From assembly GCA_021741245.1 (NCBI GenBank), contig JAIOYF010000002.1, forward strand, positions 248,001 to 312,000: 64,000 nucleotides of DNA, written 5' to 3'. Shown piece after piece: positions 1,664 to 50,489 of this stretch (position 1 is its first letter; each line of letters begins with the position of its first letter). The stretch is from Paracoccaceae bacterium. GTDB lineage: Bacteria; Pseudomonadota; Alphaproteobacteria; Rhodobacterales; Rhodobacteraceae. Made by a program: the position numbers and the translations under genes. The notes below the pieces were generated by a model that saw only the letters and a program-made list of their open reading frames with translations, was not told where the DNA came from and did not search any database.

Positions 1664-2815
1664 TCAGCCCCGGTCGAACTGCCGCGCGGCGATCGCCACA
1701 AGATTTCGGTCTAGGGAGTCGTCGGTTTGGCGCGCCATGTGTGGCGAAGTTTCATCCGTCGTCGGGTTGAGCAAACGTGCCGGGATATCATCCAAGGTCA
1801 CACTGTCCCATGCGGCACCGGCCTGCACGGCAGCGGCGGGCATTCCATAAACCACGGAACTTTGCGCATCTTGTGCGACGGTAAAGCCGCCAGCCTTTCG
1901 GATCGCAAGCAAACCCGCAGCGCCATCGCGGCCCATCCCGGTCAAGAGTGCAGCCGACGCGTTGGCACCCACCGTATCCGCAACGGTATGAAACAAGACG
2001 TCCACCGAGGGGCGTGAAAAGCAAACCGGATCGCCCGCCGTCAAAGCAATTCGGTACAAAAAGCCAGAGCGGCGCAACTGCATGTGACGCTGTCCGCCGG
2101 GGGCCAGCAAAACCAGCCCGTCCTGGACCAGATCACCATCACAGGCTTCACGCACCTCCATGGTGCAAAGAGTGTTAAGGCGCTTTGCAAAGGCGCTGGT
2201 GAAGCCATCAGGCATATGTTGCACAACCAAGACACCGGGAGAGTCGGCCGGGAACAATGGCAAAATCCGGGCCAAAGCCTGCACCCCACCGGTCGACGCA
2301 CCGATGGCCATGATCTTTTGACCCGGTCTTTTTGGCCAGGCCGGGCGCACCATGGCCGGGCGCCGCCGTATTGACGGCAAAAGCGCAGGGATTCGTCTGG
2401 CAAGGCGCGCTTGCGACGCGGCCGCAACCCGCGTGCGGATCCCTTCCATGATCGGATTTAGGCCCCGATCAACCCCGGCAGTGGGCTTGGCGATCACATC
2501 CACCGCGCCCAATTCCATGGCCCGCATCGTGACTTCGGTCCCTTCCAGTGCAAGGGATGAAATGATGACGATTGGCATCGGGCTGCGCGCCATGACCTCG
2601 GCCAAAAAGGTCAGGCCGTCAACATGCGGCATCTCAATATCCAGCGTCATGACATCGGGGCGCAGCTCTTCGATCAGCTTGCGGGCCTGATCCGCACTAT
2701 GGGCTGTTCCGGCAACCTTGAATCGGGGATCGTTTTCGAAACCCATCGAAAGCACTTTTCGGATCATGGCGGAATCGTCCACGATCAGGACGGAGATGAC
2801 CTTATCCTCGCTCAT
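1664..2815 (-). CDS. cheB: Chemotaxis protein-glutamate methylesterase CheB
   Basis: A 383-residue protein with an N-terminal receiver domain (acidic pair at VDDSAM, phospho-acceptor Asp59 in LDIEMP) and a C-terminal methylesterase domain. The catalytic Ser is in GASTGG, His in VQHMPDGF and Asp in GMGRDGA. It removes methyl groups from, and deamidates, chemoreceptors after phosphorylation by CheA. Start ATG 2815 overlaps the cheR stop (ATGA), so it is translationally coupled; an upstream in-frame start would lie inside cheR. All catalytic residues are visible, so it should be active. Confidence 0.95.
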   Translation of the reverse strand: MSEDKVISVLIVDDSAMIRKVLSMGFENDPRFKVAGTAHSADQARKLIEELRPDVMTLDIEMPHVDGLTFLAEVMARSPMPIVIISSLALEGTEVTMRAMELGAVDVIAKPTAGVDRGLNPIMEGIRTRVAAASQARLARRIPALLPSIRRRPAMVRPAWPKRPGQKIMAIGASTGGVQALARILPLFPADSPGVLVVQHMPDGFTSAFAKRLNTLCTMEVREACDGDLVQDGLVLLAPGGQRHMQLRRSGFLYRIALTAGDPVCFSRPSVDVLFHTVADTVGANASAALLTGMGRDGAAGLLAIRKAGGFTVAQDAQSSVVYGMPAAAVQAGAAWDSVTLDDIPARLLNPTTDETSPHMARQTDDSLDRNLVAIAARQFDRG

Positions 2816-3621
2816 GGGTTGGCCTTTTGGTGCACGCCATTGACAACAAACTGCCATGGCGACGGCAGGTCACGGATGCTTTCCGTGACACTGGTGATCA
2901 ACCATCCACCGGGTTCTGTGACACCATGGAGGGCAGAGAGGGTTGCAATTTGATCTGCGGGTTCAAAGTAATACAGAACGTTGCGGCAAAAGACGATTTG
3001 AAAGGTGTTCTTGAACGGGTAGGGCACCGTCTTTAGGTTCATCCGACGAAAGGTGCAGCATTTGCGGATCGTGTCGGACAGCGCATATTGACCAAGGCCC
3101 ACAGGCGACAGATAGCGTCGCCGCAGGTCTTGGGGAACCTGAGCGATCTGTCGCTCCAGAAAAATTCCGGCCTCGGCACGCTCGATGACAGGGGCACTGA
3201 TATCCGTGCCCAAAATGGTCGTCCGCTTCAGCGCACTTTCACCCAAAGCCTCGGAAATCAACATGGCGATGGTAAAGACCTCATCGCCCGTGGAGCAAGC
3301 TGCACTCCAGATCCGAATTTCATCGCGCTGGGCAAGACCGGGCAGGATGTGATCCCGAAAGCGGGTAAGGATATCCGTTTCACGGAAAAAATAGGTGTGG
3401 TTGGTCGATGAGGCCGAGATGACGGCAATCTCGACCTCGCTGACCGGATCGACGATCAGGTGATGCGCCAGTTGTTCAAGCCCCGCATAGGCGAAGCTGC
3501 GCTGGACGCGGCGAAGGCGCTGCACCAATAGTTCACGCTTATGATCGGCATAGTGGATTCCGCAACGCGCGCTTAGCCAATCGCGGATGCGCTCAACGGC
3601 GCGAAGGTCCTGCACGGTCAT
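2812..3621 (-). CDS. cheR: Chemotaxis protein methyltransferase CheR
   Basis: A 269-residue SAM-dependent glutamate O-methyltransferase acting on chemoreceptors. The N-terminal helical CheR_N domain covers about residues 1-75. The catalytic domain has NHTYFFRE, the SAM-binding loop WSAACSTGDE (usual form STGEE) and CRNVLYYF. ATG 3621 overlaps the cheA stop. Length and motif order are normal for the family. Together with CheB it provides adaptation for the receptor encoded at the operon's end. Confidence 0.95.
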   Translation of the reverse strand: MTVQDLRAVERIRDWLSARCGIHYADHKRELLVQRLRRVQRSFAYAGLEQLAHHLIVDPVSEVEIAVISASSTNHTYFFRETDILTRFRDHILPGLAQRDEIRIWSAACSTGDEVFTIAMLISEALGESALKRTTILGTDISAPVIERAEAGIFLERQIAQVPQDLRRRYLSPVGLGQYALSDTIRKCCTFRRMNLKTVPYPFKNTFQIVFCRNVLYYFEPADQIATLSALHGVTEPGGWLITSVTESIRDLPSPWQFVVNGVHQKANP

Positions 3622-4802
3622 GCGGCCCCCTTTCCGGCAAGCCGCTCGCTGTTGAGGACCGTCGCCACCTCACCCGAGTTCAAAAGCGCCAGTCCCCAGC
3701 TGGAGGTCAGCGCCTCCAGACGCCCCTGAAGCGGTTTCATCACCACTTGCTGGCGATCCATCACCTCGTCCACCAAGATGGCCAAAGGTCCGGCGCTTGT
3801 CGTGACAATCACCAAGATAAAGGTCGCCGGTTCCGTCACGGTTTCGGGGCGGGGCAACCTGATGATCGGGATGGTTCTGCCACCCTGCCGCAAGACCTCG
3901 GATTTGCCTGTCGCACTGATGCGAACGATCTGATCCAAGTTCGGTCGAAGTATTTCTTCGATGGTGTCGATGGGCAGGGCAAACAAGCGCGGCCCGTGAC
4001 GCAAGATGATGCAATCCAAGAACGCAAGTGTCAGCGGAATGTGCAGGGCGACGCGACTGCCCTTTCCTGCCAAGCTGCTGATCGTGATCCGGCCCCGCAG
4101 CGCTGTCAGCGTGGTGTTCAACACATCCATGCCAACGCCACGCCCTGAAAGGTTCGTCACAGCCTCGGCCGTTGAAAAGCCGGGTTGGAAGATGACGGGC
4201 CAAAGCTTGTCAGGTTCGGGCTGTTCAATCGGCCCGAAAAGTCCACGTTCCTTGGCTTTGGCAAGAATTTTTGCGTAGTTCAGTCCCCGGCTATCATCCG
4301 AAACGGTGATCAAGACCTCATTGCCGCGCTGCGCTGCGGACAGGGTTATGACCCCTGTCGCGGATTTTCCTGCCGCCTCTCGCTGGGCCGTCGTTTCGAG
4401 CCCATGGTCGGCTGCATTCCGCAGCACATGCAAAAGCGGTTCATACAACCGATCCGCTACCAATTTGTCCACGCGCGTATCCGCGCCGTGTGTGATCAGT
4501 TCGATGGTCTTTCCCGTCTCGCGTTCCATCTCGCGGACCATGCGGCGCAGGCGTTTGAACACCTCTTCCACATCCACAAGGCGAAGTTCGGAAGCCGCGT
4601 CTTGCACATCGCGCATGATGGTCGACAGATGATGCGAGGCCGCTTCGAAATCGGGCAGATCCAGCCCGGCAAGGTCTGACGAGTGAACAGCCGCTGAAAC
4701 GCTCAGCGACAGCTCTCCGATAAGATCCATCAACCGCCCAATCTTGTCGGCTGGAATCCGAAGCAGCCCCCCCTCGATCCCCTTTTCAGTGGCTGGAAGC
4801 AC
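3618..4802 (-). CDS. cheA: Short CheA histidine kinase lacking P1/P2 (CheA4-like)
   Basis: A 394-residue CheA containing only P3 (dimerisation, ~1-75), P4 (HATPase, ~75-255) and P5 (CheW-like, ~258-390). The N box LLHVLRNAADHGLE is at 123-136, the G1 box reads DDSRGLN at 169-175 (usual DDGxGLD) and the G2 box GRGVGMD at 220-226. There is no phospho-accepting Hpt domain. In R. sphaeroides cheOp3, CheA4 has the same P3-P4-P5 layout and phosphorylates CheA3, which carries P1 and P5. A CheA3 partner is therefore expected, perhaps left of the window. The start is GTG 4802, with AGGAAG six bases upstream; an in-frame TAG directly precedes it, so the N-terminus is genuine and not an annotation truncation. 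Confidence 0.92.
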   Translation of the reverse strand: MLPATEKGIEGGLLRIPADKIGRLMDLIGELSLSVSAAVHSSDLAGLDLPDFEAASHHLSTIMRDVQDAASELRLVDVEEVFKRLRRMVREMERETGKTIELITHGADTRVDKLVADRLYEPLLHVLRNAADHGLETTAQREAAGKSATGVITLSAAQRGNEVLITVSDDSRGLNYAKILAKAKERGLFGPIEQPEPDKLWPVIFQPGFSTAEAVTNLSGRGVGMDVLNTTLTALRGRITISSLAGKGSRVALHIPLTLAFLDCIILRHGPRLFALPIDTIEEILRPNLDQIVRISATGKSEVLRQGGRTIPIIRLPRPETVTEPATFILVIVTTSAGPLAILVDEVMDRQQVVMKPLQGRLEALTSSWGLALLNSGEVATVLNSERLAGKGAA

Positions 4803-4910: not shown

Positions 4911-5219
4911 TTAGGCCGCATCGTTCTCATCGCCGTCAAAATTGAAGATGCAGACCCCGTCAAAGCCAGTTGATCTGAACAGGAAGGTCTTTTTCATGGT
5001 GTCCAAAAAGCCGCCATGCTTCTTCTCGAACGTCTTCAGGTCGCTGATCGAACTGAAGAACACATTGATCGAAATATCGCCCTCTTTGCTGATGAGGACG
5101 TTCAGACCCGAAATGCGGCAAGACGGGATCGCATTGCCCAATGCCTCCACAACAAAGGGTGCAGCTATCTGGGCAGCATCCAGGTTCGGAAACTTTAGAT
5201 GATATGTTTTAGACAGCAT
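4911..5219 (-). CDS. Small unknown protein, first gene after the sigma-28 promoter
   Basis: A 102-residue soluble protein that I do not recognise. It begins MLSKTYHLKFPNL, has alternating beta/alpha character (NVLISKEG, ISINVFF, FLDTMKKTFLF) and an acidic C-terminus. A small ferredoxin-like fold is possible but unproven. No signal peptide or membrane segment is seen. A GGAG lies 11 bases before ATG 5219. It precedes cheA by 108 bases on the same strand and follows a strong sigma-28-type promoter, so it is probably the first gene of the chemotaxis transcription unit. Its base composition is more AT-rich than its neighbours. Confidence 0.6.
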   Translation of the reverse strand: MLSKTYHLKFPNLDAAQIAAPFVVEALGNAIPSCRISGLNVLISKEGDISINVFFSSISDLKTFEKKHGGFLDTMKKTFLFRSTGFDGVCIFNFDGDENDAA

Positions 5220-5488
5220 GAAATGAAGCGACTCCGTAACTACACATATCCACTAACGGCTTGGGGAAGGATTATGTGACATCACCTTTGGGGTAGTGCT
5301 GGCATATCCTTTTGTCATACAGACATACCAATTCCACTTTAATACCGAATGGACCAATTCCTTTGGGTGTATAAACCTACAAAATCTGAAAGTCATAATC
5401 CAAGCGGGGTGTCCGATTTTTGACTGAAATCAGAAAGTTATGCAGGCTTGCGCCAGTTTTTCCGACACCTTGAGGCGCGATATCTGTA

Positions 5489-5551: not shown

Positions 5552-5567
5552 TGGCACGACTCCTGCT
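5552..5567 (+). promoter_or_regulatory. Sigma-54 promoter of fleT
   Basis: TGGCAC-GACTC-CTGCT: the invariant GG and GC are ten bases apart and the -24 element is perfect; the -12 element has C for the first T. It lies about 35 bases before fleT, in line with sigma-54/FleQ control of the fleT operon in R. sphaeroides. Confidence 0.8.
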
Positions 5568-5601: not shown

Positions 5602-6744
5602 ATGGCACAAGTTCTTATCCTTGAGACAACATTGAGCCTCGCACCAGCGCTTCACCAACTCTTGGCTCGTCGTCGGGTGGCAGTAGAACGGAGCGCAGTT
5701 TTGTCTGGTGAGTGCCGCACGCTTGTCGTCTCGTCGCAAGATGAAGGACAGGCAGGCGGCATGCGGGGTTTGGCCGAAAAGGCACGGACACTTGGCGCCA
5801 AATCCTTGGTTGTGGTTACAGAGAATGCCGAACACTTCGCCATCACCGAAGATATGGGCGGGCGCGTGCTGCGGATTTCGGTACCCCCTTTGGCAGGATC
5901 GGGCCCAGCGCTGCGCGACTCTGCGTTGCTGTATCTGTGCGATACCATCGCATCCGCACTTCAGCCGATGGTGGCGGCAGATCCAGCTACGGGGCAGTTG
6001 ATTGACTTGGCCGCCCGTGTGGCACGCACCGATGTGACCGTGTTCATCAATGGGCCCACCGGCAGCGGCAAAGAGGTCTTGGCGCGCAAGGTGCACGCCG
6101 CCTCGCGCCGGGCTGACGCGCCCTTTATCGCCATCAACTGTGCCGCCATTCCCGAGAACATGCTGGAGGCCATTTTGTTTGGCCACGAAAAGGGCGCGTT
6201 CACCGGGGCGCAGGTCGCCAACAAGGGCATCATTCGCGCCGCCGAGGGTGGAACGCTGTTGCTGGACGAGGTGTCGGAAATGCCGATGGGTCTGCAGGCA
6301 AAACTGCTGCGGGTTCTGCAAGAACGCACGGTGACGCCCATCGGATCGCAGACCGAAGTTGCTGTGGATATCCGCATCATTGCAACATCGAACCGCGACA
6401 TGGCGCAAGAGGTTGCCGCCCGTCGATTCCGCGAGGACCTGTACTATCGTCTGAACGTTTTCCCCTTGGCGACCCGCACCTTGACCGCCCGCCCGGATGA
6501 CATCCCGGTTCTGGCCGCAAGCCTTGTGCGCCGGCACAATCTGGCAGGGCAGACTTTGCCCGTGATCTCGGCCGAGGCGATCAGCATGCTTTGTGCACAT
6601 TCCTGGCCAGGCAATGTGCGCGAGTTGGAGAATGTGATGCAACGGGCGCTCGTGCTGCATGCAGATGGCGTGATCACTGCGGACGATATTGTCATCGATG
6701 CGGGATCTTGCCTGCCCATGATGCCGATGGCCGAGGCCGTGTGA
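5602..6744 (+). CDS. fleT: Sigma-54 activator FleT (AAA+ without HTH)
   Basis: A 380-residue enhancer-binding-protein homologue. Residues 1-125 form a weakly conserved N-terminal region with no receiver signature. The AAA+ domain has Walker A GPTGSGKE (151-158), the sigma-54 contact loop GAFTGA (198-203), Walker B LLLDEVSEM (219-227) and the arginine-finger region FREDLYYRL (276-284). The protein ends about 35 residues after the AAA+ lid with no Fis-type helix-turn-helix. In R. sphaeroides FleT likewise lacks a DNA-binding domain and acts with FleQ to activate RpoN2-dependent flagellar genes. It heads the fliEFGHIJ operon. The start has AGGAGG four bases upstream. Confidence 0.88.
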   Translation: MAQVLILETTLSLAPALHQLLARRRVAVERSAVLSGECRTLVVSSQDEGQAGGMRGLAEKARTLGAKSLVVVTENAEHFAITEDMGGRVLRISVPPLAGSGPALRDSALLYLCDTIASALQPMVAADPATGQLIDLAARVARTDVTVFINGPTGSGKEVLARKVHAASRRADAPFIAINCAAIPENMLEAILFGHEKGAFTGAQVANKGIIRAAEGGTLLLDEVSEMPMGLQAKLLRVLQERTVTPIGSQTEVAVDIRIIATSNRDMAQEVAARRFREDLYYRLNVFPLATRTLTARPDDIPVLAASLVRRHNLAGQTLPVISAEAISMLCAHSWPGNVRELENVMQRALVLHADGVITADDIVIDAGSCLPMMPMAEAV

Positions 6745-28437: not shown

Positions 28438-29535
28438 TCAGACCAATGCGCCACGGCGAATGCCGTATTTCTTCATTTTCTCGATCAAGGTGGTCCGGCG
28501 CAACCGAAGTGCCTCTGCCGCTTGCGTCACGCAGCCGTCCCGCAGATCAAGCGCGGCTTCGATCAACGCCACTTCGATATCCCGCAGGTAGCCACGCATA
28601 TCCAGATCGCCAGTTTTGCCAAAGGCGTCGTGAAACTGTGATGCGTCTGGCAGCCCAAGTTCAGCCGGTTTTGGCGCCTCTGGAACATTGGTATCATCAT
28701 CATCCGGCATGCTCATCGACAGAAGATTGTCGCGAACATGACGGGCGGTGACCATGCGACCGGGGAAGAGAACAAAGGCGCGGGACAACACGTTCCGAAG
28801 CTCTCTGACATTTCCGGGCCAGCTGTGCGCCGATAGCGCCCGCAGCGCCGAGGCATCAAAATGTGGCGCATCCAATGCCGGGCTTTGGATCATACGGTCC
28901 GTGATCATACGCCCGATGATGGCAGGAATATCCACCGAACGGTCCGCAAGGGACGGAAGAACCAATGGGAACACCGCGATCCGGAAATAGAGGTCGGCAC
29001 GGAAAGATCCGTCTGCAACGCGCGTCTCAAGGTCACGATGCGTCGCCGTCACAAGGCGAAAGTCGACCTTTTGCGCGATGGAACTGCCAACCCTTTGAAC
29101 CCTTTGGGTTTCCAGAACCCGAAGCAATTTGCTTTGCAGGGCCAAAGGCATATCCCCGATTTCATCCAAGAACAGCGTGCCCTCACTGGCCTGTTCGATC
29201 AGGCCGATGCGTTGCCGATCCGCTCCGGTGAAAGCCCCTTTTTCATGGCCAAAAAGCTCTGATTCCAACAGTTCTGTCGGGATGGCCGCGCAGTTCACGG
29301 CAATCAGCGCCCCGTTGCGACCCGACGCACGGTGGACGGCCTCGGCAACCAATTCCTTGCCAGTTCCGGTTTCCCCCAAAACCATCACAGGCGCGTCGCT
29401 GACAGCCACTGTCGCAATCAGTCGTTTCACATTTTGCATCGCAGTCGACGAACCGACGATCAGCTGATCAATCATCGCCCTTGAAACAGGCAAAGGTCTG
29501 GCCGTGGATTGATGGCTCTGCCAATGTGATGTCAT
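28438..29535 (-). CDS. fleQ: Sigma-54 activator FleQ-like (AAA+ plus HTH, no receiver)
   Basis: A 365-residue enhancer-binding protein. The AAA+ domain starts almost at the N-terminus: Walker A GETGTGKE (54-61), GAFTGA (100-105), Walker [10 protein letters not shown]. The C-terminal Fis-type HTH is at ~318-362 ([24 protein letters not shown]). No N-terminal receiver or FleQ REC-like domain is present. In R. sphaeroides FleQ starts the flagellar cascade, activates fleT, then acts with FleT. Clustering with fleT and rpoN supports the name. It lies alone on the minus strand. Confidence 0.88.
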
Positions 29536-29641
29536 TCTGACCCCCGGATGCTCAGCATCTCAACTTATGAAGGTTTGCCAGAATCTTATGATTAATCCTA
29601 CTCATCATAGGACGCGCTTTGGGTTCTAAAGGTATCTGCTT

Positions 29642-29659
29642 TACATCCTTTAGGATGTA
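29642..29659. repeat. Perfect palindrome, likely operator
   Basis: TACATCC-TTTA-GGATGTA: seven-base arms with a four-base spacer, in the 179-base gap between sltF and fleQ. Related half-sites (CTAAAGGTAT, TCTTAGGTAT) flank it, and TCCTA-N7-TAGGA occurs at about 29594-29610. No T-run follows on either strand, so a terminator is unlikely; an operator for a dimeric regulator is more plausible. Confidence 0.55.
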
Positions 29660-29714
29660 TGCCCGCCCGATAGAATAATCTTAGGTATAGCCAATGCACA
29701 AGCTTCAGAAGGAA

Positions 29715-30503
29715 TCATGGCGATGGATTGAGCAGGGCGCGGGCCTCTAGCACGGCATCCCAACGACGCCGTAACTTGGGCGAGACATCGTCGCGCGCAA
29801 GAAGTTCCGCCTCGGGCGCTGCCATCATGGCATCTGCAGCGCCGTTCGCAGCGACCTCCAGCAGCGCAAGGTAATCTGATTCAGGTGCCTGCCCGATGGA
29901 GATCAGCGCACGACCAGAGGCCAGCAGCAGGCTGCCCTTCGGGCCACCATTCCCCGGGCGCGGCACCACATCTTCTTCTGCCACCCTTTGTATGGGCGCC
30001 TGACCAGAGGCCGACACCACCTTTTCCACATAGCGGGCCCCTCTGTCGGCGTCTGTGGAGTGATAATGTGCCGTTGCCAGTTCCCACGTTCCCAGACGCT
30101 TTTGCAACTCCAGCAAGAACAGGGCGGCATAGGTGGTATTGCGAACCGGATCCAACATCTCTTCAAGGGTCTTGAAGCCTTTGGAATGCCAGCGATAGTT
30201 CAGCTGCATACAGCCCACGTCTAAGTTTGTGACCCCCCGCGCAATCGCAGCTTCAAGATAGGCCAAGGCCTCGGCGCGTGTTTTGAAGTGCATGCCATTG
30301 CCGCCTTCGTTCACGGTCCAAGGCCAAGCCGCGCCACCTGTGCCCGTCTCCACCAGCGAGATGGCCGAAAGCAACCCCTTGGGAATCCCCAGCGGCGCAC
30401 CCGCAGCCTCGGCCAAGTCAGAACACGATGGTTCATTGGCCACGGCGTGTCCCAACGGAACACAAAGGAACAGCAAAAGGATAACGAGTCGGCCCAGTGT
30501 CAT
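29715..30503 (-). CDS. sltF: Flagellar soluble lytic transglycosylase SltF
   Basis: A 262-residue exported SLT-domain enzyme. The signal peptide (LGRLVILLLFLCVPLGHAVA) leads to the catalytic core: AISLVETGTGG with the catalytic Glu, NVDVGCMQLNY-like stretch LDVGCMQLNYRWH, and the AHYHS region. It would open peptidoglycan for rod passage. In R. sphaeroides FlgJ lacks the muramidase domain and SltF supplies the activity; FlgJ here is also the short form. ATG 30503 lies 31 bases after the flgL stop; the ribosome site is weak. The C-terminal ~100 residues are family-variable. Confidence 0.88.
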   Translation of the reverse strand: MTLGRLVILLLFLCVPLGHAVANEPSCSDLAEAAGAPLGIPKGLLSAISLVETGTGGAAWPWTVNEGGNGMHFKTRAEALAYLEAAIARGVTNLDVGCMQLNYRWHSKGFKTLEEMLDPVRNTTYAALFLLELQKRLGTWELATAHYHSTDADRGARYVEKVVSASGQAPIQRVAEEDVVPRPGNGGPKGSLLLASGRALISIGQAPESDYLALLEVAANGAADAMMAAPEAELLARDDVSPKLRRRWDAVLEARALLNPSP

Positions 30504-30534
30504 GAAACCATTAGTGCAAGACACGCGCCAATCC

Positions 30535-31788
30535 TCAGCGCAGATAGTCAAACAATCCCTTGCTTTGAATGCGGATGAAGCTTTGTTGCGCGGCTTCTTG
30601 CGTCATCAGCAGGGTCTGCAGGCGCGTCACTGTCGCGGCGATATCCAAATCTTCCAGATTGGCGACGGCCATCTCGATCCGTGTTCTGCGCAACGAAAGG
30701 GCATCTGCCTGACGATCCGCAAGCGTTGACAAAGAGCCCGCTTCGGCACGCTGTGCCGCGATATTGGCAACCATGCCATCGACTCCCGACAACAGCGCTT
30801 GGGGCGACAGGCTGTCCGGGCGCAACGACAGCGCAGCGCCACGCGGGGTGAATGTGGCGCCTAGGGGCTGCAAACTGGCGACAGGCGCATGTGCACCATC
30901 GCTTCTGGCCCCTTCGGACAGATCGAACGGACCATCGGAGTTGAGCACGATTGACACACCATCAGGGCCAAAGGCCGCCGTGACGCCGGTCTGTGCAGAC
31001 TTATCGTTGATTGCGTCAATCATCGGGCCGGGTGTGCCTTGGGTCAGCTTGGCCGCAACAATCGCCTCCCCCCCCGGACCAGCCAGACGAAAGGAAAACT
31101 CGGTCGGCGTGCGGCCTGCGGGCAGCGAAAGCATTGCACGACTTTCAGCCTCGATCTTGGGAGACGTCTGCCACATCTCACCGTCTAGCGAAGCCAAGAG
31201 ATTATCAATCAGATCAAAGGCACTATGGCCGGACTCGCCCGTCGCAAAGACCTCTGCCCCGTTCAAGGAGGTGCGAACGGTCAGACTTTCCGAAACCCGA
31301 AGTGAGGTTCGCCCCCCGTCGCCGATGAACTTGATCCCGTCTGGACCATCGGCAAAGGCATCCCCGCCACCATAACCAGCAAACAGAGGCTGGCCGAAAC
31401 TGTCGCGGCTGTTGGCGGTCTCAAGCATGGATGACCGCAGGCGGGACACTTCGATTCTAAGATCCTCGGCTGTGCCAGATCCCGTGGCACCGTTTGCCGC
31501 ATGCAAAGCAATCTCGCGCAATTGCTGGGTCATCGTGGCAATATCGGACAGGGCCGTATCTGTCATCGACAACCGATCACTCGCCGCCTGCGCATTGTCT
31601 GAAAACCGCTCAAGCCGGGCGCGCTGATCATTGGCAGCCGAGAGCCGCAGCGCCCGCACCGGATCTGATGATGCGGCAGGATCGTTGACACCTGACGAAA
31701 CACGCTCTTGTAAACCGGTGATCTCGGTCTGAAGGCGGGCAAACCCATCGGTGGCGATGCGCGCAAAAAGGGCGTTTCCTATGGTCAT
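30535..31788 (-). CDS. flgL: Flagellar hook-filament junction protein FlgL
   Basis: A 417-residue HAP3. The N-terminal flagellin-like helix contains RLQTEITGLQERVSSGVNDPAASSDP and the C-terminal helix RRTRIEMAVANLEDLDIAATVTRLQTLLMTQEAAQQSF. It joins FlgK to the filament. Start ATG 31788 is seven bases after the flgK stop, with GAGG as ribosome site. Confidence 0.92.
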   Translation of the reverse strand: MTIGNALFARIATDGFARLQTEITGLQERVSSGVNDPAASSDPVRALRLSAANDQRARLERFSDNAQAASDRLSMTDTALSDIATMTQQLREIALHAANGATGSGTAEDLRIEVSRLRSSMLETANSRDSFGQPLFAGYGGGDAFADGPDGIKFIGDGGRTSLRVSESLTVRTSLNGAEVFATGESGHSAFDLIDNLLASLDGEMWQTSPKIEAESRAMLSLPAGRTPTEFSFRLAGPGGEAIVAAKLTQGTPGPMIDAINDKSAQTGVTAAFGPDGVSIVLNSDGPFDLSEGARSDGAHAPVASLQPLGATFTPRGAALSLRPDSLSPQALLSGVDGMVANIAAQRAEAGSLSTLADRQADALSLRRTRIEMAVANLEDLDIAATVTRLQTLLMTQEAAQQSFIRIQSKGLFDYLR

Positions 31789-42540: not shown

Positions 42541-43467
42541 GTGGCGCTTAGATCAAAACCCCAAGGCCAGAATGGCAGCCGCAATCCCGCACTTGCGGGA
42601 TTTGCGTCACGGTTCATCAAGGCATTCGGGCCAATGCAAGACCCACTGGTGGTCTCCGAAGTTCTGGGCAAGCTTGGGCGGCGTGCCGTTGATCCGGCGG
42701 CGCGGCGCAGGGCAATCGCAGCCCGCATCGCGATCCTGTCCCTTGGGGGCCGCGAACCGCTGCGTCAGACCGAAATCATTTCAGAGGCTCCAGAACCAGC
42801 CACAGTGCAGCCGCCCGTCACCGCGCCCGTCGCCCCGCCCAAAGATCGCGAGCCTGCTGTCAAAAAGCCTACCAAAACCAAGATCATGAAAACCATTGTC
42901 GCTCTTGAAGATACGTCTGTCTTGCTTGAGGCGATCTCTCTTTCGGACAAGGTCAAAAAAGTAACTGACCTGCCCAGCCGGGAAGATTCGGCCACTCATC
43001 TTACCGTTGATGATCGCACGAACATCAAAGACGGATTTGCCATGACCGAGTCATCGGCACAACCGACCGGCACAACCGACGCCGTTGAGATGCCCTTTGT
43101 CGATCAGCTCTCAGGCGCTCAGTCCCTGAATTCTGACGATATATCGCACGCTACCAAGCAGAACACGAGCAAAGTGCTCAATCTTGCCCCCGAGTCGGCC
43201 TTGCCGCCCGGTGTGTCTGCACAGCCATCGGACGGCAATTCATCGCAGACCGATGAGGGTCCAGCAGACGCGAAACTGCCAAAGAAGAAAGTCCGCGGCA
43301 AACAAATGATTTCTTTTGATCTTTCTGCGCTTGATGATCTGGGGCAAGACAGCCCGGAAGAAACCCAAGCCCCCCAATCACCTGCAGGTGCGACGGGCGC
43401 GGTTGTGTCGGATGGGACTTCGGATCAACCCTATCCGCTGCGCGATATCACGCCAAAACGGATCTAA
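42541..43467 (+). CDS. Unknown, mostly disordered protein divergent from flgB
   Basis: About 308 residues. A basic N-terminal ~80 residues (ALAGFASRFIKAFGPMQDPLVVSEVLGKLGRRAVDPAARRRAIAARIAILSL) look helical and folded; the rest is Pro/Ser/Thr/Asp-rich and probably disordered, with short basic patches (KKPTKTKIMK, KKKVRGKQM). No membrane or signal segment; I do not recognise a family. GTG 42541 is preferred because AGGGA stands seven bases upstream; ATG 42511 has AGGAGG touching it, too close for use, and overlaps the flgB -24 element. The stop shares CTAA with the convergent kinase gene. Confidence 0.6.
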   Translation: MALRSKPQGQNGSRNPALAGFASRFIKAFGPMQDPLVVSEVLGKLGRRAVDPAARRRAIAARIAILSLGGREPLRQTEIISEAPEPATVQPPVTAPVAPPKDREPAVKKPTKTKIMKTIVALEDTSVLLEAISLSDKVKKVTDLPSREDSATHLTVDDRTNIKDGFAMTESSAQPTGTTDAVEMPFVDQLSGAQSLNSDDISHATKQNTSKVLNLAPESALPPGVSAQPSDGNSSQTDEGPADAKLPKKKVRGKQMISFDLSALDDLGQDSPEETQAPQSPAGATGAVVSDGTSDQPYPLRDITPKRI

Positions 43468-46178
43468 GCTGTCAAACCCCGGTCGCGCAACAGATCAAAT
43501 GACTGATGCTTGATCCGTTCGATCATGGCCTTGGTTAGCTCTGCCGACCCGCCATCCCCGGCTTTGGCCTGATTTTCGTAGACCACAAGAAGCCGATGCA
43601 AGGCCTTCAGACCGAGCGACGCGGCGGCACCGGCGTTCTTATGGGCCAACTGTGCCGCGCCGGAAAGATCGCCCTCTTGCGCGCTGAGTTGCATCGCCAC
43701 CAATGTTTCATTTGTTTCCGCGACAAAGCGGTTTGCCATGCGCGACATATAGGCAGGTCCAAGGGCATCTTCGAGATCGGCCAACATATCCACGTCCAAA
43801 AGGGCAGGCAAATCCGGCGGCAAATCGATGTGTGGCATCTGCACTTCTTGTGTTGGTCGACGATCAACTTCGGCTTCTCGGTCAATGACCAGACGCAATC
43901 TTGCAGGTGCCGTTGCCTTTGGGGCGGTCGCACCAAGATCAGTAATCTTGTCGGTGCTCGATGGCACTATGGTCTGCAAAATCCGATCCAGATCGCCAAT
44001 GTTGACGGGTTTGCTGAGAACTTCGGTCATGCCGGCTTCCAAGAAGCGTGCCTTCTTCTCGGCATCCGCGTTCGCCGTCACCCCGATGATGGGAACATCC
44101 GCCGATGGTCCACCGGCGCGAATGGTTCGTGACGCCTCAAGCCCATCCATCACCGGCATGGAAATATCCATCAAGATGATATCGGGTCGCTCTGCCATGG
44201 CCATTTCGACACCGGCAGCCCCATCAGATGCTTCGCTGACGGTGTGGCCTTTCATCTGCAACAACTCGACCAGCAATTCGCGGTTGACCGGGTTATCTTC
44301 AACAACCAGCACGTTCAGAGGGTTGATTGGTCGCTTGGTTTGCGTGCTCACACCTTCCACTGGTGGCTGCTCTGTGCCAGTGGGAAGGTTGAGGAAAAGG
44401 GCAAAGGTGCTGCCCTGCCCCTCTCGGCTTGTCACAGTGATCCGGCCACCCATCGCCTCTGCGGCCAGTTTCGCAAGACCAAGGCCCAGCCCACTTCCCT
44501 CTTTCAGACGCGCATAGGACGAATCGAGTGTTTCAAAGGCACGAAAGATCCTGTCGCGATCCGCAGGGGCAATCCCGACGCCCGTGTCTGTCACGGAAAT
44601 CCGCAATGCACAGGTATCAGAGGCCCGGCCTGCCTGCGCATCTATGGCGATCGTGATCACGCCACCGTCTGTGAACTTGACCGCGTTGGATACGATGTTG
44701 CGCAAGACCCGCGCCATCAAGGGGCGTTGCCCTCGCAGCCATGGGGCCTCGATGCCGGTGGATTTTATGACAAAGCGATTGTTCCGCTTGCGTGCCTCGG
44801 CCTCGAATTGGGCAACGGTGTTTTCGACCAGTTCTTTCGTGTCGAAATCCGTTTCCGGATAGCTGTGACCCTCGGTTGATTGAAGCCGCGTCAACTCCAG
44901 CACATTGTTGACCTGTTCCAACGTGGTCTGCCCACAGGTCTCGATGATGTTCACAAGCCGGCCTTGCCGAGCATCGAGTTTGGAGTCCGACGTCAGCAGC
45001 TCCACAGCCGAAAGAAGACCGTTCAACGGGGTCCGCATCTCATGGCTCATGACCGCGAGGAACCGCGACTTGGCTTCTTCACCTTGAAGAGCCGCGTTTC
45101 GGGCCTGACGCAGCGTTTCTTCTTGGGCCACACGCTCCGAGATGTCGCGCAAAAATGCGATTGCAATGGGAAGGCCGACCGCACTGCGGGCCTGCGCCAA
45201 GCTCAGTTCCAACGGAAAAGACATGCCGTTTTGATAATAGCCCGTCAGCGTGATGCGTTGTTGATCCTGCCCTTGAACGGTCGCGCAGGCTTCTGCGATT
45301 TCCACAAGCCCTGCGGAACCCCGCTTTGCTTCGCGCACAACATCCGAGAAATATCGAACGACCCTGCCGCCCTCTTCCCAACCGAACATTTCGGCACCGG
45401 CACGATTGCAGCCGATGACACGACCATCGTGATCAAGGATAACCGCAGCCTCCAGCGACGAGTCGATGGTGGTGCGCAAATTGTAAACTGCCTGCGCCAG
45501 TTCCTGACGATTGCGTTCGCGTGTCTTGCCCTGCAGATAGAGCGCGATCATCATCGCCGCCAGCAGACCAAGCAGGCCAAGGGACACCGCTGAAAACACC
45601 TGCAGTGAGGACCGCAGTTCGCCGCGCCGATCCTCTAGCCGACGCAAGGAAATCAGCATGGACTGGACGATTGGCTTGCGGATCCCTGCAGCCACGTCCT
45701 GCGCCTGATCAAACAAGGCTGGCAAGGCCGGGATCAACGCCTCATCCGGCCCGTCAAAGAAAGGAACGGCGGTTTCGATCAGGCCACTCGGTCCAACAAT
45801 GGATACCCAATCGGAGGACTCGGTAAAGGGCAGCCCAAGAAGTTTGTTGTGGCTTGCGACAAGATGTGTGCGTGAGTACAAAAGATCAAAGCGCAACCGC
45901 AGTTCCGCCAAGGCATCTTTGTCAAGCACATCACGCTCAACGTTCGACAGCGCATTGATATAGCGCAGCAACTCCACCTCGACCTGAGACAGGACCCAAG
46001 GCGTGCTATCCGTTTCCGCCGTGTTGCTGCGCATCATCTGTTCATCGATTTGGCGAAACACGATGACATTGGCCACAACAACGATAAGAGCAATTCCGAT
46101 CATGGCGGCATAGCGAAGACCGCGAATAACACCGTTATTCGCGGTCTGAACCGCTTGATCAGTTAAGCCGTTGTCCAT
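43464..46178 (-). CDS. Tripartite hybrid histidine kinase (TM-PAS-HisKA-HATPase-REC-Hpt)
   Basis: A 904-residue sensor kinase. Two membrane segments (~24-42 and ~197-215) flank a ~150-residue periplasmic sensor. A PAS domain spans ~235-350 and HisKA has His380 (SHEMRTPLNG). The HATPase has N box NIVSNAVKFTD, DTGVGI and GSGLGLGLA. The receiver has Asp671 (ILMDISMPVMDG) and the C-terminal Hpt has His846 (LAHKNAGAAASLG). All phospho-acceptors for a His-Asp-His relay are present, so a separate receiver should follow, plausibly the LuxR-type regulator next door. A periplasmic SUOX-like protein is encoded 59 bases upstream. Ligand unknown. Confidence 0.92.
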   Translation of the reverse strand: MDNGLTDQAVQTANNGVIRGLRYAAMIGIALIVVVANVIVFRQIDEQMMRSNTAETDSTPWVLSQVEVELLRYINALSNVERDVLDKDALAELRLRFDLLYSRTHLVASHNKLLGLPFTESSDWVSIVGPSGLIETAVPFFDGPDEALIPALPALFDQAQDVAAGIRKPIVQSMLISLRRLEDRRGELRSSLQVFSAVSLGLLGLLAAMMIALYLQGKTRERNRQELAQAVYNLRTTIDSSLEAAVILDHDGRVIGCNRAGAEMFGWEEGGRVVRYFSDVVREAKRGSAGLVEIAEACATVQGQDQQRITLTGYYQNGMSFPLELSLAQARSAVGLPIAIAFLRDISERVAQEETLRQARNAALQGEEAKSRFLAVMSHEMRTPLNGLLSAVELLTSDSKLDARQGRLVNIIETCGQTTLEQVNNVLELTRLQSTEGHSYPETDFDTKELVENTVAQFEAEARKRNNRFVIKSTGIEAPWLRGQRPLMARVLRNIVSNAVKFTDGGVITIAIDAQAGRASDTCALRISVTDTGVGIAPADRDRIFRAFETLDSSYARLKEGSGLGLGLAKLAAEAMGGRITVTSREGQGSTFALFLNLPTGTEQPPVEGVSTQTKRPINPLNVLVVEDNPVNRELLVELLQMKGHTVSEASDGAAGVEMAMAERPDIILMDISMPVMDGLEASRTIRAGGPSADVPIIGVTANADAEKKARFLEAGMTEVLSKPVNIGDLDRILQTIVPSSTDKITDLGATAPKATAPARLRLVIDREAEVDRRPTQEVQMPHIDLPPDLPALLDVDMLADLEDALGPAYMSRMANRFVAETNETLVAMQLSAQEGDLSGAAQLAHKNAGAAASLGLKALHRLLVVYENQAKAGDGGSAELTKAMIERIKHQSFDLLRDRGLTA

Positions 46179-46237: not shown

Positions 46238-46753
46238 TCAGTTGACCGTCAGACGCTGAAGCTGCCAAATGCTGAAGGCAAAAGAGATCTCGGATTTGTA
46301 TTTTTCATCCCTGTCATAGGGATAGACGACCCAAAGTGGGCCCTTGTCACGGCGCGAGAAGGTCTCATCGTTGATGAAATAGGCTATGATCGGGGCCTTA
46401 TCATCCAAGTCGGCGATCGGAATATCTACGGCGTAGCCGTTGAGCGCCTCGGCCGTCACGGTTGTTCCAACCGCCCCAGCGGCCGTCAGCAGATCGCGCA
46501 GGGGGACACCAGTGAATTTCATCGACCCTTCGGTCCAGATCGTTGATGTCGAAAACTCTTCTGGCACAAAGCTCTGCAATCCAACCAAGTCAAGCTCATA
46601 GCCACCGGCCGGAGCATCCGCCCCCAAAGCGCCATCTATGATCAAAATCACTTCTCCGGTGGCCTCTGGCATGCTTCCTGCCATGGCAGAAAAGGATCCA
46701 AGTGCAAGAACCAGAGCGGCAGTGCCGGCGCGAAGATATGCGGTGAGTGTCAA
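46238..46753 (-). CDS. Exported SUOX-fold protein without cysteine, probable kinase partner
   Basis: A 171-residue secreted protein: signal peptide TALVLALGSFSAMA-type at ~1-25, then a small domain resembling the sulfite-oxidase/molybdopterin-binding fold (TSTIWTEGSMKFTGVPLRDLLTAAG, LNGYAVDIPIADL, PLWVVYPYD). The protein has no Cys, so the molybdenum-ligating Cys of YedY/SUOX enzymes is missing. It is likely a non-enzymatic binding protein. It starts at TTG with GGAG nine bases before and is in an operon with the tripartite kinase, so it may feed a periplasmic signal to it. Homology call is from pattern, not search. Confidence 0.7.
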   Translation of the reverse strand: MTLTAYLRAGTAALVLALGSFSAMAGSMPEATGEVILIIDGALGADAPAGGYELDLVGLQSFVPEEFSTSTIWTEGSMKFTGVPLRDLLTAAGAVGTTVTAEALNGYAVDIPIADLDDKAPIIAYFINDETFSRRDKGPLWVVYPYDRDEKYKSEISFAFSIWQLQRLTVN

Positions 46754-46837
46754 GGACGATTACTCCAACTAAACAGGGTTACAGATGTCTATTTTAGCAG
46801 CCATGACATACTAATCTATGGAACTTACGGATGCCGA

Positions 46838-46856
46838 GGCATCCAAAAGGATATAC
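46838..46856. repeat. Imperfect palindrome upstream of the response regulator
   Basis: GGCATCC-AAAA-GGATATAC: core ATCC-N4-GGAT, same family as the perfect palindrome at 29642-29659. It lies about 160 bases before the regulator's start in the 261-base divergent region (46754-47014), which otherwise shows no gene. Confidence 0.45.
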
Positions 46857-47014: not shown

Positions 47015-47662
47015 ATGGGACTGGTAGATACTTTTCGTGACGAGGGGCTAAACGTTCTTATCGTCGACGATCACGAGATGATTCTTGAGATGTTCGCCAT
47101 GTATCTTGAAGGGTCCGCCGGGATGAGCGTTACGACCGCCAAGAACCTGGATGAAGGTATTGATTGCATCACTGACCACGGCCCCTATGACGTCGTGTTG
47201 CTTGACCTTAACATGCCGGGGATGAACGGCGTGTCAGGCCTGCGCCGGGCGATCAAGGCCAATGAGGGGAAGCCCGTGGCCATCATCACCGGCAGCCCAT
47301 CGCCACGGATGCTGGACGAGATCATGAATACAGGCGCGTCTGGCATTGTGCTGAAGACCACGGCGGTCCGCAGCCTTGCCAATGCCATCCGCTTTATGCA
47401 CTCGGGCGAGCATTACATGCCGCTTGAATTGGTAAGGGAACGCCAGACCGTCAGCCGGGCCGTTCGCCATGGGCAGTTGTCCGAAAAGGAAATGACCGTT
47501 CTGACCTTCCTTGCCGAAGGCAAGCAGAACAAGGAAATCGCAAATGACCTGCAACTGGCCGAACCGACGGTAAAGATGCACGTCACAGCCATTTGCCGCA
47601 AACTTGGTGCACAGAACCGCACGCAGGCCGTGGTGATGGCACGCGACCTCGGCTTGGTCTAA
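47015..47662 (+). CDS. LuxR/NarL-family response regulator
   Basis: A 215-residue regulator. The receiver domain (VLIVDDHEMI, phospho-Asp64 in VLLDLNMPGMNG, Lys in GIVLKTT) is followed by a LuxR-type HTH (LSEKEMTVLTFLAEGKQNKEIANDLQLAEPTVKMHVTAICRKLGAQNRTQAV). ATG 47015 is chosen because AGGA stands nine bases upstream; ATG 47006 abuts AGGA, and an upstream extension of 46 residues is not receiver-like. It lies between two hybrid kinases and is the only DNA-binding output in the block. Similar palindromes occur upstream of it and in flagellar control regions, suggesting targets. Confidence 0.92.
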   Translation: MGLVDTFRDEGLNVLIVDDHEMILEMFAMYLEGSAGMSVTTAKNLDEGIDCITDHGPYDVVLLDLNMPGMNGVSGLRRAIKANEGKPVAIITGSPSPRMLDEIMNTGASGIVLKTTAVRSLANAIRFMHSGEHYMPLELVRERQTVSRAVRHGQLSEKEMTVLTFLAEGKQNKEIANDLQLAEPTVKMHVTAICRKLGAQNRTQAVVMARDLGLV

Positions 47663-47753: not shown

Positions 47754-50267
47754 TCATAGCAATCGGGAAAGCGCTTTCTCCAAGGTCTTTACGCTGACCG
47801 GCTTGGTGAAAACATCATTCGCACCGGACGCGCGGAAGCGATCAACGTCTTGACCAAAATCTGTGGCCGTCATTCCGATAATCGGGGCAGCAAAACCCTT
47901 TGCCCGCAGCTTCAAGATCAACTCATCCCCGCTAAGACCCGGCATGAACAGATCGGTCACCACAACATCAGGACTATGCGCCAAAGCCCATGACATACCG
48001 GTGCTTCCGTCGCGCATCCATGTCACCTCGCCAAAGACTCGCTGCAGTCGGGCGACCAAAAGTTCGCCCATCGTCTCGCTGTCTTCGACCACAAGCACAG
48101 AGCGGTCCGTCAAATCAACGGTCCGTTCCAAATCTGCCCCAGCCGTTGCGCTTGCCTCTCGGTCGCGACCGTCTGGCTGCAGTGTCAACGGAATGGCAAT
48201 GTGAAACTCAGCCCCGCTTAGCGGGTTTTCCACATAGTCTATCCGGCCCCCCAACAGCTGAATGGCTTCTTTGGCGATATAGAGCCCCAGACCCGAACCA
48301 TCGGCGCGCGCGCCGCTGTTATCCCCGCGCACAAAGGGGTGAAAGATCGTTTCGCGCCCGACCAAGGGGATGTTGCGACCATTGTCACTGACAGTCCAGT
48401 GGCCGACAAGATCCGATGCCTCTTCGTATCGGATCACGATTTCTGTGGCTTGAGAATGGACAATGGCGTTCTTGACCAGATTGGACAGGGTTTGGTTCAA
48501 CCGGACCCGGTCCGTGCAGCGCAGCGCAGCAGCCCCAGCCCCCATGCGCAATTCAATCGACATTCCACGCGCTTGCGCCATCGAATGGAATGCGGTCCTG
48601 ACACTTTCAGCCAGATCTTGTGCCCGAAACGCCTCGATCCGAACGGGCAAGTTTTGCTCGGGGCGGACCGTTTGGCGCATGTCCGTCAAGATCGCCAAAA
48701 GCTGATCCAGAACGGCCCGCATTTGGGGGCCCTTTTCGGACCAGCTTTTGCCGTCATCCAACTCATCCGCAACCATCGACAGAATCGAGGCGGGCGTGCG
48801 CAGTTCATGTGAAATCATCGAGAAGATCTGGGTCTGCTGACCCTGCTTTTCAGAAAGCTCTGCCAGCACCATTCTCATATGTTCTTCCTGGGCGCGCTCA
48901 CGTGACACATCCACGACGATACCATAGCTTACATGGCTTTTGTGCCTAAGCCTCTCATGACGGGCAAAGCCGGTAAAATGTTGAAAATCACAGCCTTCTG
49001 TCCACGCACCATCCAACGCAAACCGGAATGAAAAAGCTTGCCCCTCGATATCCTTGGTTGTTGCCCCCAATGACACAGAATCCCGATCATCCGGATGAAC
49101 CCGCAATAAGAAATCATCCGAGGCAACAATCGCAGGAATCCCTAGGATCTTTTGGGCCAAGGCATCGAAATAGGCGAAACGTTCGGAAAAATCGAATAGG
49201 AAATAGCCAAATCGCGCCAACTCTTGCGCCTTCGTCATCCGCCCCAAAGTTTGCATCTGCGCCCGCTCAACCCGAGAAGAGCGCATACGCTGAATGGCCA
49301 GCAGGACCATCAGGCCAAACAAGATATTGGTCAAAATATCATTGTGAACCTCTGTGACCGTCATCACCTTTGGCAGGTCAACAAAACACCCGGAAATGGC
49401 GATGAAAAGGCTGAATCCCCCCAGAATTGCGGCAATCGAACTGTGGATCGGGCGCAAGATCAGCAAGGCCAAGGCCAAAATCAGGGGGTCCAACGAAGGC
49501 ATGAGTGTATAGCCTTGGCGACACAGCAGCCCGACAACACCAAAGACGGCCATGAAGAACAGGATCTCTGGCATTGACTTCAGCTTTGGCAACCGGACGA
49601 ACAACAAAATGCTTCCGGCGGCAATTATCCCAAGCTGAAGCTCCCGTTGCGCTTGGACAAACAGCACAGTCTCCATCCGAAACGGGATCTCGGTGCGCAG
49701 CATATGAAGCTCGATCCACGTCGAAAAGCAACCGATCACGATGCCCGATACGCCAAAGGCAATCCCACCGATCAGCGCGGCCACTTCGGGCGCGCGAACG
49801 GTGCGGCCATTGTCACTGGTGCCCAGCGCCCGTCTGGCGGCGCCTCCGCTGATCAGCCCAATGGTCATTGCAACCAAGAGGGCCCGTACCATGCCCAAGG
49901 CGCTCCATGCCGTGGACCCATTCCAAAGCACGGTGATAAGCTCGGCAGAAATAAAGCTGGCCGCGAATGTCCCGAATATCAGCCACAAAAACCGGTACGG
50001 CAGAATTGCCAGTCCCACGGCAAGGACCGGTGCAGAGATATGGGAATAGTTCGCCACCCGGATCGTGATGAAATCGGTCACTTCGCCGTTGAAGGCCAAG
50101 CAAAAGACAAAGAACAGGGACGAAAGGACATAGACTGTCGCAAGGCTGACTGGGTTACTTACGGACTGTCTGCGAAACTGCCCCAAGGGATCGTTGGACC
50201 AAATACCAAGCTGGGCTTCGGCGCGGATCTTTGGAGTCTGCTGCAAAGATGACGACGTCCAAATCAC
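47754..50267 (-). CDS. Hybrid histidine kinase with multi-span N-terminal sensor
   Basis: An 837-residue kinase. The N-terminal ~330 residues hold about eight hydrophobic segments in a MASE1-like arrangement. A PAS-like section (~345-465), HisKA with the His in MISHELRTPAS (~487), HATPase (NLVKNAIVH, GSGLGLYIA) and a C-terminal receiver with Asp in VVTDLFMPGLSG follow. There is no Hpt. The G1 box is odd (VSDNGRNIP instead of DxGxGI). Start GTG 50267 is proposed because GGAGGG is six bases upstream; TTG 50273 touches that site and no ATG exists nearby. It is convergent with the LuxR-type regulator. Confidence 0.88.
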   Translation of the reverse strand: MIWTSSSLQQTPKIRAEAQLGIWSNDPLGQFRRQSVSNPVSLATVYVLSSLFFVFCLAFNGEVTDFITIRVANYSHISAPVLAVGLAILPYRFLWLIFGTFAASFISAELITVLWNGSTAWSALGMVRALLVAMTIGLISGGAARRALGTSDNGRTVRAPEVAALIGGIAFGVSGIVIGCFSTWIELHMLRTEIPFRMETVLFVQAQRELQLGIIAAGSILLFVRLPKLKSMPEILFFMAVFGVVGLLCRQGYTLMPSLDPLILALALLILRPIHSSIAAILGGFSLFIAISGCFVDLPKVMTVTEVHNDILTNILFGLMVLLAIQRMRSSRVERAQMQTLGRMTKAQELARFGYFLFDFSERFAYFDALAQKILGIPAIVASDDFLLRVHPDDRDSVSLGATTKDIEGQAFSFRFALDGAWTEGCDFQHFTGFARHERLRHKSHVSYGIVVDVSRERAQEEHMRMVLAELSEKQGQQTQIFSMISHELRTPASILSMVADELDDGKSWSEKGPQMRAVLDQLLAILTDMRQTVRPEQNLPVRIEAFRAQDLAESVRTAFHSMAQARGMSIELRMGAGAAALRCTDRVRLNQTLSNLVKNAIVHSQATEIVIRYEEASDLVGHWTVSDNGRNIPLVGRETIFHPFVRGDNSGARADGSGLGLYIAKEAIQLLGGRIDYVENPLSGAEFHIAIPLTLQPDGRDREASATAGADLERTVDLTDRSVLVVEDSETMGELLVARLQRVFGEVTWMRDGSTGMSWALAHSPDVVVTDLFMPGLSGDELILKLRAKGFAAPIIGMTATDFGQDVDRFRASGANDVFTKPVSVKTLEKALSRLL

Positions 50268-50489
50268 GAGCAACCCTCCATCCGCATGCCTATCCGCCCT
50301 AAGGCAGTGATGGAACAGTCTGATTTCTCTGCCCTATCCTAATGTACACAGTAATCAAAACAGGCACGGGTGCTAAGATCACTGATCGGATCAAGGATCG
50401 CTCTATGGGATAGGATATTTGTTTATTTATCGAAAATTACATACCTTAGGATTGCAAACCCAACCTAGTGCAGGACGCAAATGGGCTGA

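Follow-up and report, generated by a model that had tools for sequence, protein, structure and literature searches.

A conserved palindrome upstream of fleQ as candidate operator of a NarL-type response regulator in Rhodobacteraceae

The palindrome TACATCC-TTTA-GGATGTA, which an earlier note on this DNA had singled out as perfect, is present exactly as claimed at positions 29642-29659 of the window (the whole stretch of 64,000 nucleotides analyzed here). It lies in the 179-nt intergenic gap between an SLT-domain gene and fleQ, both on the minus strand, and 106 nt ahead of the fleQ start at 29535. By comparison with related genomes, it is a conserved DNA site, and the same comparison establishes the element, its places and its tie to orthologues of the response regulator encoded at 47015-47662 (hereafter RR). 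RR is a well-supported candidate regulator of fleQ and most likely binds to this palindrome. We estimate a probability of roughly 0.8 that the palindrome is an operator for RR as part of the whole mechanism proposed below. In the genome from which the window originates, the 18-mer was found with up to three mismatches at three places, namely at fleQ, at C7:187730 (intergenic, two mismatches) and at C17:182459 (three mismatches). The features of the window are collected in Table 1.

Table 1. Genes and putative regulatory sites in the window; scores were obtained with the matrix derived from RR promoters of relatives.
Feature	Position	Strand	Description
Small gene heading the che operon	4911..5219	-	Followed by cheA-like (3618-4802) and cheR-like (2812-3621) genes; Pfam
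Degenerate site	5279..5298	.	-4.5 bits; centre 69 nt before gene 4911-5219
Degenerate site 2	5353..5372	.	-1.5 bits; centre 143 nt before gene 4911-5219
Sigma-54-type promoter before fleT, TGGCACGACTCCTGCT	5552..5567	+	Conserved in the alignment of fleT upstreams
fleT	5602..6744	+	Sigma-54 activator domain, no HTH match (Pfam); orthologues found
fleQ	28438..29535	-	Sigma-54 activator, AAA+ and Fis-type HTH (Pfam); orthologues align from residue 1
Palindromic site before fleQ	29641..29660	.	Exact part 29642-29659; 23.7 bits, top score of the window
SLT-domain gene	29715..30551	-	Upstream of fleQ on the same strand; Pfam
Hybrid kinase 1	43464..46178	-	Two predicted TM segments, PAS, HisKA, HATPase, receiver, Hpt; Pfam and hydropathy
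Small protein	46238..46753	-	Signal-peptide-like start, partial Oxidored_molyb domain (Pfam); divergent from RR
RR-promoter site 1, TGACATACTAATCTATGGAA	46804..46823	.	15.3 bits; at -211, where most relatives have their strong site
RR-promoter site 2, AGGCATCCAAAAGGATATAC	46837..46856	.	11.8 bits; site seen in the earlier note
RR, NarL/LuxR-type response regulator, proposed binder	47015..47662	+	Receiver (PF00072) and GerE HTH (PF00196), Pfam; orthologues found
Hybrid kinase 2	47754..50273	-	Multi-TM N-terminus, HisKA (below Pfam cut-off), HATPase, receiver
Site before hybrid kinase 2, TTACATACCTTAGGATTGCA	50437..50456	.	14.0 bits

RR orthologues were obtained as 60 loci from genome contigs, of which 41 (L062-L102) were taken further together with those in the family of the window. 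The RR upstreams of L088, L093, L097 and L099 were dropped before counting (L097 later scored 25.2 bits and L093 11.5 bits), as were the loci L150 (partial), L151 and L152 out of 28 fleQ loci. Upstream regions were then subjected to an unseeded enumeration of 1,024 5-base half-sites with gaps of 0-10, allowing one mismatch and using three dinucleotide shuffles per set. In these sets, which contain the window and consist of related sequences so that the counts are not independent, CATAC-N4-GTATG ranked first in the RR upstreams (21 of 40 against a shuffled mean of 0.3; CATCC-N4-GGATG 15 of 40), CATCC-N4-GGATG ranked first and CATAC-N4-GTATG second in the fleQ upstreams (10 and 8 of 29, 0 in shuffles for either), and CATCC-N4-GGATG was present in 12 of 28 fleT/che upstreams against 1.7 after shuffling, behind sigma-54 promoter patterns that took the first ranks. 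A symmetric matrix of 20 columns was derived from 37 RR upstreams, 29 of which gave sites; the window and L062 and L089, the two relatives nearest to it, were excluded, and the training used no fleQ or fleT upstreams. At the sequence level, an inverted repeat of at least 12 bits was detected in RR's own promoter in 31 of 40 upstreams, mostly the training set, and sites of this strength were present in 15 of 29 fleQ and 12 of 28 fleT upstreams. At a threshold of 10 bits, the numbers rose to 17 of 29 for fleQ and 15 of 28 for fleT, compared to means of 0.18 and 0.28 in 200 shuffles (maxima 2 and 3) and of 0.36 and 0.35 with 300 column-permuted matrices (maxima 8 and 5). In 39 stretches from which RR promoters were excluded, scores above 10 bits occurred at 0 of 680,765 coding and 17 of 61,527 noncoding positions and scores above 8 bits at 2 coding and 20 noncoding positions, as divided by a purpose-made codon-based gene caller. 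This answers in the negative the question raised in the earlier note whether the motif is equally common inside genes.

In the window, only the sites starting at 29641, 46804, 50437 and 46837 reached 11 bits or more with this matrix, followed by a next score of 7.9 bits. All four are located in the 4,314 of 64,000 bases that are noncoding, and 4 of 500 column-permuted matrices likewise yielded at least four noncoding window sites of at least 11 bits. The core ATCC-N4-GGAT was rejected as evidence by itself, with 4 matches in the window versus 1.38 expected and 4 of 100 shuffles reaching the same number. The assumption of a single motif family shared by fleQ and the RR/kinase block, with all sites in noncoding control regions, is upheld for the matrix from relatives, which joins the fleQ, RR and kinase 2 sites, but not for the bare core, which is not significant and has two of its four matches (9489 and 33412) within called genes. 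In the RR promoter, where a site had been claimed at 46838-46856, ATCCAAAAGGAT is exact at 46841-46852, and the better-scoring RR-promoter site 1 was absent from the earlier list. The degenerate site suspected near 50449 is indeed situated before the second kinase, spans 50437-50456 and scores 14.0 bits. TATCC near the -10 region of RR promoters was considered as a second site and discarded, its conservation being limited to a -10-like TATCCT in most sequences.

Of the 25 fleQ upstreams whose gene starts align, 19 have their best site starting between -125 and -146, an interval that was picked after the data had been seen, so that its binomial value is descriptive only. This count leaves out G416, G422, G423 and G425 (4 of 29), where the match sets in only at residue 20 or 22, and the best site is outside the interval in G420, G402, G426, G428, G429 and G039. 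Some of the 19 sites at the matching position are weak, e.g. in G394 (-0.6 bits) and G408 (1.8 bits), and the upstreams below 10 bits include those of the closest relative G394, with an RR 96% identical to that of the window, and of G420 (1.3 bits). Conservation of the palindrome next to fleQ, proposed earlier as a check, was found in the sense that the same palindrome tops the unseeded enumeration at RR and fleQ and has a near-fixed position at fleQ, with 12 of 29 upstreams scoring below 10 bits. An alignment read by eye revealed a TTGAAT-N15/16-TATCAT-like promoter between the site and fleQ in the upstreams of seven relatives; the promoter-like match at 29563-29534 in the window's fleQ upstream runs into the start codon and is at chance level. 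Since the site is well upstream of an apparent sigma-70-type promoter at both fleQ and RR in relatives, activation is favoured as the mode of action. Separately, a conserved block resembling a half-site, CATMC-NTTTC, was observed approximately 30 nt downstream of the palindrome in the fleQ upstreams of G104, G396, G399, G397, G406, G414 and G427.

The residues DD, D64, T92 and K114, which are the canonical residues in phosphorylation of receiver domains, are present in P0006 and P0004, as read from sequence comparisons, one of which contained the window protein twice. None of the NCBIfam equivalogs (NarL, ErdR, MctR and others) reached its cut-off for RR, the best being ErdR with 101.3 bits versus 390, and the nearest solved relatives are VraR and NarL. 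FlaC-type roseobacter regulators were considered as a known name for RR, and no supporting paper was found. FleQ was detected in 28 and FleT in 27 of 37 RR genomes (37 of the 60 RR loci were searched). In the sample from the window's family, FleQ is present in 11 of 198 genomes, comprising 5 of 9 genomes with RR (E <= 1e-60) versus 6 of 189 others (Fisher 2e-5), and RR and fleQ are 18-19 kb apart in G000, G104 and G051. All six fleQ genomes without RR at this threshold (G027, G045, G090, G097, G161 and G174) are devoid of the site, with best scores of -8.7 to 3.7 bits, and the fleQ site is likewise absent from G176, G039, G428 and G429, the genomes with distant RRs (51-55% identity). The scores at RR correlate modestly with those at fleQ (Spearman 0.43, n = 29, p = 0.02) and with those at fleT (0.55, n = 25). 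The nearby LuxR-type regulator had been named before as the obvious candidate binder, and at the level of sequence this choice is supported by the absence of the site from the fleQ genomes lacking RR and by the RR-type half-site at fleQ.

This half-site also bears on the question whether the main binder could be a NarL-type paralogue encoded in the same genome instead of RR, which we consider unlikely. Two other matches at E <= 1e-40 in the window's genome (C15 and C1) provide candidates, and 9 of 19 paralogous RR promoters score at least 12 bits with the RR matrix, so that sites could be shared. However, the base preceding ATMC is C in 58 of 66 RR, 33 of 38 fleQ and 37 of 40 fleT halves, but only in 2 of 18 paralogue halves, of which 16 have T. 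Similarly, the recognition helix reads KMHV in RR and 18 orthologues and KLHV in 13 paralogues, a position that contacts DNA in NarL. In addition, the promoters of the paralogues at C15 and C1 lack the site (-10.7 and -4.8 bits), and the fleQ site is absent where the RR orthologue is absent. Two or four sets of Donghicola-type relatives with a more distant RR (51-55%) have no site at RR and fleQ, yet their RR HTH reads KMHV. Among the paralogue promoters, taken from L018-L038 after dropping L021 and L031 at contig edges, the nine mentioned above carry the palindrome in a T-type form, CTATMC-N4-GKATAG, suggestive of a larger family of autoregulated regulators in Rhodobacteraceae.

An assignment of the site to FleQ itself, by autoregulation, or to another flagellar regulator would be in line with its location within the fleQ promoter and close to fleT. 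We regard this as very improbable because the RR-promoter site reaches at least 12 bits in 6 of 9 RR genomes without FleQ at E <= 1e-90 (some of these genomes are incomplete), because fleQ without RR occurs without the site in 6 of 6 genomes, and because the matrix scan returned no site of at least 8 bits at the other flagellar operons in the window. Even less credible is a function as RNA hairpin or terminator of the SLT gene: the palindrome is located approximately 56 nt past the stop codon of this gene and folds at -16.1 kcal/mol, but the fold is no better than those of 19 of 200 shuffles, 29480-29760 contains no terminator-like site, the window gave no Rfam match, and the motif also precedes RR and che genes without a fixed strand. 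A chance match, in line with the 9 perfect 7-N4-7 palindromes of the window (4 of them noncoding; a count not significant as evidence by itself), is just as implausible in view of the 23.7 bits obtained with an out-of-sample matrix, the best score in 64 kb, and the nearly conserved position.

On the chemotaxis side, relatives carry a site of at least 9.9 bits, its centre 69-96 nt ahead of the small gene that heads the che operon, in 14 of the 15 loci in which this gene was found (the survey covered 16 of 27 fleT loci and L180), the exception being locus L153 of the closest relative with 2.1 bits. In several relatives, the area corresponding to 5353-5372 contains a further site, weak or strong. 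Since fleT has a conserved sigma-54 promoter near its start, the sites were assigned by position to the che operon, and those at 5279-5372 would accordingly belong to this operon rather than to fleT. Three sites had been claimed at 5280-5373. Two of them are located where relatives have good sites but are degenerate in the window, where the motif search detected the ATCC-N4-GGAT core in none, and the middle one is unsupported. Of the postulated control over fleQ, fleT/chemotaxis and RR itself, the sites at fleQ and RR stand, and those on the chemotaxis side are in relatives positioned for the che operon rather than for fleT.

The divergent order of the small protein, kinase 1 and RR is kept in 26 of 44 loci, and kinase 2 was called only in the window, L062 and L089. 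In the closest relative L062, a perfect 14-mer scoring 24.7 bits (L062:7295) precedes the same kinase 2. The small protein is a possible sensory partner of hybrid kinase 1, an interaction guessed from gene order. In the mechanism that we propose, phosphorylation of RR would be set by hybrid kinase 1, whose probable sensory partner is the exported Oxidored_molyb-like protein, and in the window's lineage also by kinase 2. A dimer of RR would bind to CATMC-N4-GKATG, and its site in the divergent promoter of RR and the operon of the small protein and kinase 1 would confer autoregulation. Further targets would be fleQ, the che operon next to fleT and kinase 2, and elsewhere RR may also act at adhesin, pilin and polysaccharide genes. 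Binding, the phosphorelay partners, activation, the signal and the attachment side are parts of this scheme that we infer.

A genome-wide pattern scan with CATMCNWWNGKATG (forward columns) returned 122 sites in 22 genomes versus 2 matches of the mirror control, and 60 of 84 inspected sites were intergenic according to the codon-based caller. Recurrent neighbours of these sites were genes for an AFG1-like ATPase (6 loci; Pfam on L230), RTX-repeat proteins (3 loci; Pfam on L226), cadherin/Ig-like proteins (3 loci; Pfam on L255), a protein that we take to be MscL-like (3 loci) and a dCache protein beside a photolyase-like gene (2 loci); a sugar transferase gene is the neighbour at L200. A LapG-like reading of L220, L232 and L183 was discarded, L220 having no Pfam match. 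Of the five exact sites in the window's genome, one is that of fleQ, two are associated with a Hint_2 protein and with an uncharacterized small membrane protein, and a fourth has a cadherin-like protein as its neighbour at a distance of 375 nt. The fifth, L198 (G000:C1:59165), is an exact copy of the motif within a predicted TRAP-type transporter gene and possibly due to chance. Another site was observed between an SLT gene and a presumably Flp-like pilin gene at L243 and, with one mismatch, at L005 (G000:C20:8718) in the window's genome. We give about even odds to the view that an exported Oxidored_molyb-like protein, a membrane hybrid kinase and a NarL-type RR form an undescribed module, encoded as a divergent unit in Rhodobacteraceae, that acts as a switch between motile and sessile life by addressing, via one palindrome, fleQ, chemotaxis and its own level as well as adhesin-like, Flp-like pilin, polysaccharide and envelope genes. 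The regulon is new, the kind of regulator is known.

RR would be the first candidate for a regulator above the Rhodobacter-type Fla1 flagellum, where FleQ tops the known cascade. With a conserved operator and a named candidate regulator, this putative input to FleQ can be tested directly, while the remaining sites suggest a single system linking swimming with attachment. NarL/FixJ-type response regulators typically recognize palindromic targets with an A/T centre and are often autoregulated. RR resembles NarL, VraR, DevR and ErdR in combining a receiver with a GerE HTH, and its site is like those of the family in being palindromic with an A/T centre and present in its own promoter. In contrast to the named members, the half-site differs and the putative target is a flagellar master gene of Rhodobacteraceae. 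At the level of sequence, the window also matches the Fla1 system of Rhodobacter (Cereibacter) sphaeroides with its FleQ/FleT hierarchy, sharing FleQ with AAA+ and HTH domains, FleT with AAA+ but without HTH, a sigma-54 promoter before fleT and che genes in the locus. In the available parts of the accounts of R. sphaeroides Fla1, FleQ stands on top, FleT without DNA-binding domain is encoded behind a sigma-54 promoter, che genes are part of the locus, and no regulator above fleQ is named (PMC7277832, PMC11999139); FleQ is described there as activating fleT and che genes (PMC7277832). Here, in contrast, a two-component regulator is encoded approximately 18 kb from fleQ and has its putative site upstream of fleQ. 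In the accessible portions of the openly licensed literature, to which subscription journals largely do not belong, no NarL-type or RR-type input above fleQ in Rhodobacteraceae was found. Two-component control of a flagellar system is described for the CckA/ChpT/CtrA phosphorelay of Rhodobacterales in the parts of the literature at hand (PMC7277832, PMC12363192). That phosphorelay differs from the one proposed here in the regulator family and in the flagellar cluster concerned, as CtrA drives Fla2 in R. sphaeroides and not the FleQ-type Fla1.
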